Of a stretch of DNA of 36,315 bases, positions 31,570 through 34,613 are shown piece after piece. The notes under the pieces are model-generated. The model had not been told where the DNA came from, searched no databases, and saw nothing but the letters and a program-made list of their open reading frames with translations. Position numbers and translations under genes: made by a program. Position 1 is the first letter of the stretch; every line of letters starts with the position of its first letter. The stretch is from the NCBI GenBank assembly GCA_019428825.1, contig JAHYJU010000006.1, positions 1 to 36,315 on the forward strand, read 5' to 3'. The stretch comes from Patescibacteria group bacterium (GTDB lineage: Bacteria; Patescibacteriota; WWE3; UBA101185; UBA10185).

Positions 31570-31596
31570 TTATATTTTCTTTCTTTTAATTTTTAT

Positions 31597-31830
31597 GAGG
31601 GAATTTAAAAAAAGAGTAAGTGTCTTTTAAAATTTCCCTCTTTTACTTTTGAAATTAATTAACTTAGTAATTTCTCACCTGAGCCCCCGCCTACGCTAAA
31701 GTCTTTACCTGCCGTAGCCTTTTATAGGCGAAGGTAGGGATTCGGCGGGTAAAACCGCCCAAGACATCTGCGTTCTAAAATCTCCTGGGGGAGAGAGTTT
31801 CAGGACATGGGTAAATTATCACGTGGTGGG
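31597..31830 (-). promoter_or_regulatory. candidate structured rpsB leader with GC-rich palindromes
   Basis: GAGGGAA/TTTCCCTC stem, GGCGGgtaaaaCCGCC hairpin, CTAAAATCTCCtgggGGAGAGAGTTTCAG hairpin, ORF-free. Confidence 0.45.
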
Positions 31831-31891: not shown

Positions 31892-31921
31892 TTGATATGA
31901 GACTTGCGATTGATGTATAAT
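31892..31921 (+). promoter_or_regulatory. sigma70-type promoter TTGATA-N18-TATAAT
   Basis: -35 31892-31897, -10 31916-31921, just upstream of the candidate ncRNA. Confidence 0.65.
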
Positions 31922-31927
31922 AAGATT

Positions 31928-32165
31928 ACAAAACTGGAGGCGGGATCAAGTAGAAAGGGAAAAAATGAAACACCTTGTTTTTAAATCTATTGCTGCCAAT
32001 TTTATTAGCAAGATTTGAAAGGAGGTGATCAAAGGGCCGGCAAGTGGCAAGGTTAAATCCTTAATACTTACCATATAAGCCCTGTCTCTACTTGTTCAAA
32101 TTTAGGGAAAGGAGAAAAGGAAAAAATTTGATTTTTTAAAAATTAATCCAACCCGCCTCTTTTCT
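31928..32165 (+). ncRNA. candidate novel structured RNA with 16S 3'-end complementarity
   Basis: Nested helices GAGGCGGG/CCCGCCTC, CAAGTAGA/TCTACTTG, AAATCT/AGATTT, GGGC/GCCC, AAGG/CCTT, TCAAATTT/AAATTTGA; promoter upstream and T-rich 3' end. Confidence 0.6.
31965..32018 (+). CDS. possible 17-aa ORF inside the candidate ncRNA (MKHLVFKSIAANFISKI)
   Basis: ATG with AAAGGG 5 nt upstream; stop TGA overlaps GAAAGGAGGTGATC. Confidence 0.3.
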   Translation: MKHLVFKSIAANFISKI

Positions 32166-32217
32166 TTCCATATAGAGATTATTTAGTCAAAATATATACT
32201 ATTAACAACACTCTAAA

Positions 32218-33954
32218 CTATTTTAACTCATAAACCCAAGTATCATTTGGGATATCAGCAAAGTAAAGGTCACCATAATCATTAACAAAATCCTTAAGTC
32301 TTGATTGGTGTCTCTCAGGACATCCAAAAAACACAATTCTTTCATCAAGTCTATCAAGAAGTATTAAGTATCTTATATTATTCTCTTTCAATTCAGCATA
32401 CATACCCTCATTGCTTCTTTTAGAATATCCGAAATACAAACTGTCCCTTACAACCCTTTTATCGTAATCATTTAAAAAGGTTAGAAAAACTTGCTGAGGG
32501 AAAGGACTACTATCTAATATTAAACCCTCGGTGTTACTTAACATTGTTGATATATATTCATTACCTAATAAAAATTTGCTTTTTTTAGGATTATTTATAG
32601 GATTTCGTAGCAAAAACATTAAAAATGTCGATGCACCTAAAATTAAAAATATAAATCTTAAATACCTTTCTTGATTTCCATCAAAAAAATACTCATAAAG
32701 CGGCACTACGTAAATTGGAAACAAAAAGAATAAATACCAGTATACAGTCCTTATTGAAATAAAATAGTAAATGGTATAGAAAAAGGTAGCTAGAAATAAA
32801 AAGTTGTCATATTTTTCTCTTCTTTTAATTATAAGGGGTATAAATATTATTATCGAAATGTACAAGTACGGTCCGGGGTCTCTGAGCCTCACACGAATAA
32901 ATCCACTGTTAATATTATAAAAATAGTTTATTGGTTGACTAAGAAAATCCCAAATACTTCTGTCATTAATAATATGGGAGAAATCTACTGTCTTCTGCTC
33001 CCTAAGACACTCCCCATAAACACTGTCAATTTTTTCAAAAACAACAGTAGGATTTTTATCTTTCGGATATATATTTATATTAGTCCAAGGAATCGCCAAA
33101 CCGAAATTTACAATCCAAAATAATAAAAGTAGAGAGATTATCAGAGGAGATATAAATGAAACCAATAGCTCTTTATATAGTCGATGTTTAAATAGGCTAA
33201 AAACATGCAATCCTGTAAGGATGAGATAGAAAGGCAAAACAGAAATCTTAGTCAGTATTGCCAACCCGGAGAAAATACCAAATAATAAATACCTGATCAG
33301 GTTACCACTGTTTTTTATGTCTACGTAAATAATGAAAGATAGCAAACTAAACATCAGAAGAAATTGGTCAATTTTAAACTCGTATAGAGCTAAATCAAGA
33401 TAAACAGGAGTCGTAGCAACAATAAAGATTAGAAAACTATACTTATACTTAGAAAAACCAAGTTTTTTATAAAAAACTTTCAAAAGAAATATATTAATCA
33501 AAGACACTACAATAAAGCTGGTATAAACATAGCTTTTTGACATATACCTCCATATAGCAGCCAACATTAATTCTATTAAATAAGGGGGGTGTGCAGAATT
33601 AGTAAAGTTTAAGAAAAAATTATCTTTTAACAACAAGACTCTTTTTAGATACCATAATTGACCATCCCAGCTATTATAACGAAGATAACTACTGGAGCTC
33701 AGAACTAACATAAGGGTAATTGAAATTAAGAATACATTGAATAGTAAATTTACTATTATTAATTCTTTATTGGAAAGGATTTTTATTGTGAATACAATCA
33801 ATACCGCAAAAAAAAATGCGACTAAATACCACCAAAGAAGTATAGGCCTACTAATCAAATATATCAGAATCAAAACCGGAATTATTAAATATTTTTTTCT
33901 TAATAAATTTACTTCTGAAGAGAGCGTTTTAAAAAGTTTTTTGTAATAATCCAT
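32218..33954 (-). CDS. polytopic membrane glycosyltransferase (PMT/ArnT-like, GT-C fold)
   Basis: Many transmembrane segments; RYNSWDGQLWYLKRV and FTNSAHPPYLIELMLA luminal-loop patterns. Confidence 0.75.
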   Translation of the reverse strand: MDYYKKLFKTLSSEVNLLRKKYLIIPVLILIYLISRPILLWWYLVAFFFAVLIVFTIKILSNKELIIVNLLFNVFLISITLMLVLSSSSYLRYNSWDGQLWYLKRVLLLKDNFFLNFTNSAHPPYLIELMLAAIWRYMSKSYVYTSFIVVSLINIFLLKVFYKKLGFSKYKYSFLIFIVATTPVYLDLALYEFKIDQFLLMFSLLSFIIYVDIKNSGNLIRYLLFGIFSGLAILTKISVLPFYLILTGLHVFSLFKHRLYKELLVSFISPLIISLLLLFWIVNFGLAIPWTNINIYPKDKNPTVVFEKIDSVYGECLREQKTVDFSHIINDRSIWDFLSQPINYFYNINSGFIRVRLRDPGPYLYISIIIFIPLIIKRREKYDNFLFLATFFYTIYYFISIRTVYWYLFFLFPIYVVPLYEYFFDGNQERYLRFIFLILGASTFLMFLLRNPINNPKKSKFLLGNEYISTMLSNTEGLILDSSPFPQQVFLTFLNDYDKRVVRDSLYFGYSKRSNEGMYAELKENNIRYLILLDRLDERIVFFGCPERHQSRLKDFVNDYGDLYFADIPNDTWVYELK

Positions 33955-34613
33955 ATAAATTTCAAACCGTCTATAGGTCTTATACTTTTTCCCTCCTTAA
34001 TAGATCTAGGTTTGTAGGATATCGGAAATTCTACTATCTTTATACCTCTATTATTAAGTATACATGTTAGTTGTGCACAGAAACCGAATTTTTTCTCAGT
34101 TATCATTTTAGGTTCCACAATATCTCTCCTAAAAACCTTATAGCAAGTTGAAATATCTGTAATATTATCCCTAAAAAGCAGGTTGTAGTATCTGGTTATA
34201 AAAATATTTCCCCAAAGAAAAAGGCGGTGTTTGTACGGATTTTTTTTTAATAATCTAGATCCATAAACTGCACTATAACTATTATCTATCGCCAAACTAT
34301 ACAAATAGAATAATTCTGAAGGATTATACTCTAAATCTGCATCCTGTATTGCTAAATAATCTCCCCTAGCTACCTCCATACCACTCCTTACTGCATCTGT
34401 TTTACCCCGATTTTTATCTAATCTTAAAGCAACCATACTGTCATATTTTTCTGATAATATTTTTAAATATTCCTCAGTTTTATCAGTCGAACCATCATCA
34501 ACCACTATTAGCTCAAAATCATTATAATTAGAAGAGTTATTGTAAACATTCTCTATTACCTCTCTGATTGTCTTATCTTCATTATAGACTGGTATTATTA
34601 TGCTTAGACTCAT
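33909..34613 (-). CDS. GT2 family glycosyltransferase (DPM1-like)
   Basis: MSLSIIIPVYNEDKTIREVIENVY...IVVDDGSTDKTEEYL...IQDADLEYNPSEL. Confidence 0.95.
   Translation of the reverse strand: MSLSIIIPVYNEDKTIREVIENVYNNSSNYNDFELIVVDDGSTDKTEEYLKILSEKYDSMVALRLDKNRGKTDAVRSGMEVARGDYLAIQDADLEYNPSELFYLYSLAIDNSYSAVYGSRLLKKNPYKHRLFLWGNIFITRYYNLLFRDNITDISTCYKVFRRDIVEPKMITEKKFGFCAQLTCILNNRGIKIVEFPISYKPRSIKEGKSIRPIDGLKFIWIITKNFLKRSLQK

Follow-up and report, generated by a model that had tools for sequence, protein, structure and literature searches.

A start-less extended Shine-Dalgarno sequence in a putative small RNA divergent from rpsB in a Patescibacteria genome

Introduction

Why would a bacterium carry an exceptionally long complement of the 16S rRNA 3' tail at a place where no start codon follows it? 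The question is raised by a 14-nt stretch, GAAAGGAGGTGATC, at positions 32017-32030 (plus strand) of a 36,315-nt window, that is, the whole stretch of DNA analysed here (contig JAHYJU010000006.1 of assembly GCA_019428825.1, from a Patescibacteria group bacterium). The assembly, hereafter G000, comprises 842 kb in 71 contigs, is 92% complete and, by its size and its relatives, suggests a reduced-genome (CPR-like) lineage. The 14-nt stretch lies on the plus strand between rpsB (31569-30685, minus strand, as are tsf and frr), from which its locus diverges, and a membrane protein gene (33954-32218, minus strand) convergent with it; no plus-strand gene lies downstream.

Results

Because the 16S rRNA gene of G000 is itself absent from the assembly, the 3' tails of three same-genus genomes (G001, G002 and G003) were used instead. 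All three end in GGCTGGATCACCTCCTTTCTA, the tails read from other family members match this as far as CCTCCTTTCT, and every one of these tails either is or begins with GGATCACCTCCTTTCTA. The stretch therefore pairs at 14 of 14 positions, as a sequence-only reading of this DNA had claimed, and we refer to it as SD2. It occurs once in the whole assembly. In G001 and G003 (1.5 Mb together), exact matches outside the 16S gene reach 12 nt at most; there are a few 12-mer matches per genome, with similar results for a reversed control string, and from the decay of the match counts we estimate ~0.1 chance 14-mers per genome, so that the length of the motif alone is only mildly improbable and not decisive. 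Of the two marks of an ordinary Shine-Dalgarno sequence, SD2 has the complementarity to 16S rRNA and lacks the start codon 4-11 nt downstream: in G000 and in its closest available relative, G002, no ATG, GTG, TTG or CTG is found 4-11 nt after AGGAGG, and the nearest non-overlapping start-type codon in G000 is a GTG 18 nt past it. On this point too the sequence-only reading was correct.

The predicted pairing of SD2 with the 16S tail (here and below, energies are for strands treated in isolation) amounts to -24.7 to -26.4 kcal/mol, and that of its G002 counterpart, AGGAGGCGATCCA, to -24.1 kcal/mol (with a 16S tail two bases longer). Both exceed every one of the ~1,190 gene starts measured in two sister genomes, where the strongest reach -21.4 and -20.0 kcal/mol; the comparison is conservative, since each gene start was automatically taken to be the one with the best Shine-Dalgarno sequence among the first 80 codons, a choice that works in favour of the genes. 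The sister genomes use Shine-Dalgarno sequences weakly, with a median best pairing of -6.0 and -5.8 kcal/mol at gene starts versus -5.4 and -5.2 kcal/mol at internal controls, and for this lineage the complementarity of the motif is exceptional. When the entire putative RNA (see below) is paired with the 16S tail, G000 reaches -30.7 kcal/mol against a shuffle mean of -16.4 kcal/mol, a value attained by 0 of 2000 dinucleotide shuffles, and the homologous RNA of G002 reaches -24.3 kcal/mol (attained by 0.3% of shuffles). The pairing is extended on the 5' side (GAAA) in G000 and on the 3' side (CA) in G002, and extension on opposite sides fits selection for total pairing.

The motif appears to belong to a short transcript. 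A predicted sigma-70 promoter, TTGATA-18-TATAAT (31892..31921, plus strand; 11/12 consensus matches), has a counterpart, TTCAAC...TAGAAT, at the equivalent place in G002, and it would give rise to a putative small RNA of ~240 nt (31928..32166, plus strand) with both ends inferred. Near its 5' end, the segment GGAGGCGGG (31936..31944, plus strand) may form an end-closing helix with 32152-32160 (pairing probability ~0.8 in G000); the helix is mismatched, with no pairing predicted, in G002. There follows a first Shine-Dalgarno sequence, SD1 (AGAAAGG; 31952..31958, plus strand; -10.6 kcal/mol with the 16S tail), whose G002 counterpart, GAAAGGAG, pairs at -12.7 kcal/mol, and then a putative 17-codon ORF (31965..32018, plus strand), absent from the sequence-only reading, that would encode MKHLVFKSIAANFISKI. 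Its ATG, at 31965, comes 37 nt after the inferred RNA start at ~31928, and its TGA stop (32016-32018) overlaps SD2. Beyond SD2 lie a conserved block ending in CTTACCATATAAGCCC (32067..32082, plus strand; ATTACTATAAAAGCCT at the corresponding place in G002), a purine tract (32104..32121, plus strand) and a conserved pyrimidine-rich 3' tail, CAACCCGCCTCTTTTCTTTCC (32149..32170, plus strand; CAACCCACCTCTTTCCTTTTC in G002), at which no standard terminator was called.

The predicted short RNA is undescribed: it has no Rfam match at the gathering threshold, and relaxing the cut-off to E<=10 adds only BsrC and MOSES4, chance matches that score far under the threshold. It is not tmRNA, since RF00023 has no match here and the tmRNA of the genome lies elsewhere (contig C4, 5955-6340). 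It is probably not 6S RNA either, given that RF00013 has no match and the predicted fold is branched rather than a single long hairpin with a central bubble. The Rfam model finds 6S RNA in 0 of 29 family genomes (G000-G028), versus tmRNA above the cut-off in 26 of the 29, and its lack of a match therefore speaks less firmly against a diverged 6S RNA. A CsrB-type sponge was likewise rejected, no match to CsrA (PF02599) being found in G000-G004.

In G002, a homologous stretch lies between topA and rpsB (alignment z ~8 versus shuffles). G002 is a fragmented bin with 7% contamination, though on the contig concerned the order of topA and rpsB is as expected. In that genome topA directly adjoins the small RNA, whereas in G000 two genes (32218-34613, minus strand), encoding the membrane protein and a protein resembling family 2 glycosyltransferases, come between them. 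The G002 layout comprises SD1, an ATG whose offset equals that in G000, 16 codons (MVNLRILISINEANQE) and a TAG stop touching AGGAGG; its SD2 reads AGGAGG-C-GATCCA, in which GATCCA resumes the match after one mismatch. The SD2 core is thus kept at 10 of 11 positions while most of the spacer between the species is unalignable, and such a core match arises anywhere in the region in 0.12% of shuffles.

Might SD2 simply be a very strong ribosome-binding site that serves a second small ORF whose start has escaped recognition, or that served a downstream gene since lost, the whole being a small operon or its remnant? The layout invites this explanation, as a stop codon overlapping the Shine-Dalgarno sequence of the next gene is the usual operon arrangement, and AGGAGGTGATC sits 3-4 nt before the ATG of ordinary genes in three family genomes (G009, G015 and G026). 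Against it, neither species has a start-type codon at a usable distance or a conserved reading frame downstream of SD2, and in a remnant SD2 would be expected to have decayed, given how far G000 and G002 have diverged. We regard the operon explanation as rather unlikely, if the most serious of the alternatives. Since the sister species keeps the start-less layout, the motif may instead serve to retain ribosomes and not to initiate a protein.

It is also unlikely, in our judgement, that SD2 is a Shine-Dalgarno-like string arisen by chance in an AT-rich, purine-rich intergenic stretch and passed down, functionless, to two related species. The expected number of chance 14-mers leaves room for such an origin, as does the restriction of the motif to two species. 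A pattern search for the SD1-ATG-SD2 layout in 48 genomes of the class and 389 of the phylum returned only G000 and G002. An nhmmer search with a G000 plus G002 profile found no copy in G001 or G003, both of them nearly complete (best E 1.9). When the sequences from G000 and G002 were compared with other genera by BLAST, all hits apart from the rpsB leader were short, AT-rich and attributable to chance, and no relatives were found in a scan of viral contigs. The function is accordingly dispensable or young, given that there is no copy in G001, G003 or the phylum sample, and the conservation of the motif relative to its flanks, to which the sequence-only reading had looked, is partial: the core persists in G002 with a different extension, and no copy is present in G001 or G003. 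What chance inheritance does not readily accommodate is a core preserved at the homologous place amid diverged spacers, a pairing with 16S rRNA that is extreme in both species, and an ATG, an ORF length and a contact between stop codon and SD2 that are common to both. Sites matching TAGAAAGGAG that G001 and G003 have in common are intergenic, lie beside a terminator-like hairpin and are unrelated to the small RNA.

A third explanation holds that the short peptide is itself the functional product, a leader or type I toxin-like peptide regulated by the structured 3' part of the RNA. Both species have a good SD1 and an ATG at an unchanged offset, and in G000 the predicted peptide is short and basic, with some hydrophobic parts; the two peptides, however, share almost nothing except length, and no promoter for an antisense antitoxin was recognised, the peptide itself being shorter than family searches accept. 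We consider a functional peptide improbable. One longer peptide made by stop read-through was rejected, as the stops differ (TGA and TAG) and the frames are not open in parallel.

The putative RNA folds better than its shuffles (z -2.6) into a predicted branched structure. In it, SD2 is paired with pyrimidine-rich codons just past the ATG (31971..31981, plus strand), through CACCTT in G000 (pairing probability up to 1.0) and TCTCC in G002 (~0.9), and would thereby be masked. Masking is a lead only, because 23-30% of shuffles mask SD2 equally. When the start region of the ORF is held open in the prediction, SD2 of G000 takes another pairing, so that its exposure by translation is not secure. 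The purine tract at 32104-32121 had been singled out earlier as a second purine-rich loop; the tract is there, and it is better explained as part of a hairpin near the 3' end, most likely its 5' arm. In G002 it is 98% paired with the pyrimidine tail; G000 is predicted to fold differently, with the helix between the 5' and 3' ends favoured.

The sequence-only reading had suggested that the RNA might bind or sequester 30S subunits or respond to the level of free ones, ideas that are conjectural, and had taken the position beside rpsB-tsf-frr to fit them. We find this link weak, because these genes are on the opposite strand, rpsB is served by a promoter of its own and a leader found across the family, and conservation of the neighbourhood ends with G000 and G002. 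In G003 the small RNA is absent beside rpsB, with topA directly upstream of rpsB, and in G001 and G004 it is not recognisable there, other sequences being present. In the latter two genomes, its place upstream of rpsB is occupied by different divergent promoter-plus-hairpin sequences that adjoin a gene reading as thymidine kinase, have no Rfam match and cannot be aligned with the G000 RNA. Pairing in trans between the small RNA and the rpsB leader is no better than in shuffles (43% and 59%).

The rpsB leader (31570-31811, minus strand) is an observation in its own right. Conserved across the family and seen in ~24 genomes, it is preceded by a conserved promoter, TTGCCA...GATAAT. Its first hairpin, CCTGAA-CTCTCTCCC-loop-GGG-TTCAGGTGAG, is followed by another that is variable; next comes CAAAANTAAAAGGGRRR, and one more hairpin stands ahead of the start codon. 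Its CTCYCT strand can pair with a downstream AGRGRG in a pseudoknot; when 5' elements were dealt among the sequences, 43 of 2000 shuffles reached the observed level. In G000 the first hairpin contains a GC-rich stretch of ~100 nt (31687-31788, minus strand) that relatives lack. No Rfam match was found in the loci scanned, and the element is probably an S2 autoregulatory leader.

The proximity of rpsB bears on a last alternative, in which the minus strand is the functional one and a region ahead of rpsB mimics the 16S tail (GATCACCTCCTTTC). In its favour, rpsB does lie downstream on that strand, and pyrimidine-rich blocks are conserved in the minus-strand reading. We regard it as highly improbable: on the minus strand the conserved promoter and leader of rpsB begin ~200 nt past the motif, no other conserved promoter is found there, and the conserved AAAGG(G/A)...AAAAATG block can be understood only as plus-strand sequence.

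Discussion

The reading we tentatively prefer, at less than even confidence, is that of a lineage-specific small RNA in which a translated leader ORF is followed by an extended Shine-Dalgarno sequence that holds 30S subunits. The RNA would be transcribed divergently from rpsB, and ribosomes translating the leader ORF would open the hairpin that masks SD2. Upon termination at the adjacent stop, the exposed SD2 could pair with the 16S tail, such that a 30S subunit, either the one that has just terminated or a new one, stays on the RNA and a second protein is not started. The result would be a ribosome-bound RNA, the folding or stability of which depends on ribosome engagement, much like a translation-attenuation leader minus its downstream gene. 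A bolder version, in which the RNA exists specifically to capture 30S subunits, or ribosomes after termination, by means of a start-less extended Shine-Dalgarno sequence loaded through the ORF, and in which its fate reports ribosome availability, strikes us as doubtful.

Parts of this arrangement are familiar. Translation-attenuation leaders of the ermC or cat type have a first Shine-Dalgarno sequence and a short leader ORF, followed by a masked second Shine-Dalgarno sequence. The small RNA resembles them in placing SD1 and a putative short ORF (17 codons in G000, 16 in G002) before SD2. Masking of SD2 by the leader ORF is predicted in both species, at a level that 23-30% of shuffles equal and that is therefore not significant. 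The small RNA differs in having no gene downstream of SD2, and it is not known to have a ligand or a stalling sequence. Sponge RNAs of the CsrB/RsmZ type are GGA-rich, and the small RNA shares with them repeated GGA-containing purine tracts; the difference is that no CsrA is found in G000 and four relatives.

The closest precedent is rpsU in Flavobacteriales, a lineage in which Shine-Dalgarno sequences are hardly used: its single, exceptionally strong extended Shine-Dalgarno sequence has a pairing energy below -13 kcal/mol, pairs far along the 16S tail and senses ribosomes with a free anti-Shine-Dalgarno sequence (PMC9976891). SD2 is likewise an exceptional Shine-Dalgarno sequence in a lineage with weak usage; the rpsU sequence, however, drives initiation at the rpsU start codon (PMC9976891), whereas SD2 has no start codon and its RNA contains only a 16-17 codon ORF. 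SD2 does not precede the start codon of a ribosomal protein gene, rpsB being on the other strand. In Staphylococcus aureus, extended Shine-Dalgarno motifs have long complementarity to the 16S tail and serve initiation at start codons (PMC13009471); SD2 resembles these motifs in its long complementarity and differs from them in being start-less.

If the RNA is expressed, SD2 would be a Shine-Dalgarno sequence stronger than the sampled gene starts of the sister genomes and yet serving no start codon, and Shine-Dalgarno pairing would be usable, beyond initiation, to hold or sense ribosomes. Reduced-genome lineages with weak Shine-Dalgarno usage, such as this one, may offer a clean setting in which to test the holding of ribosomes by such pairing.
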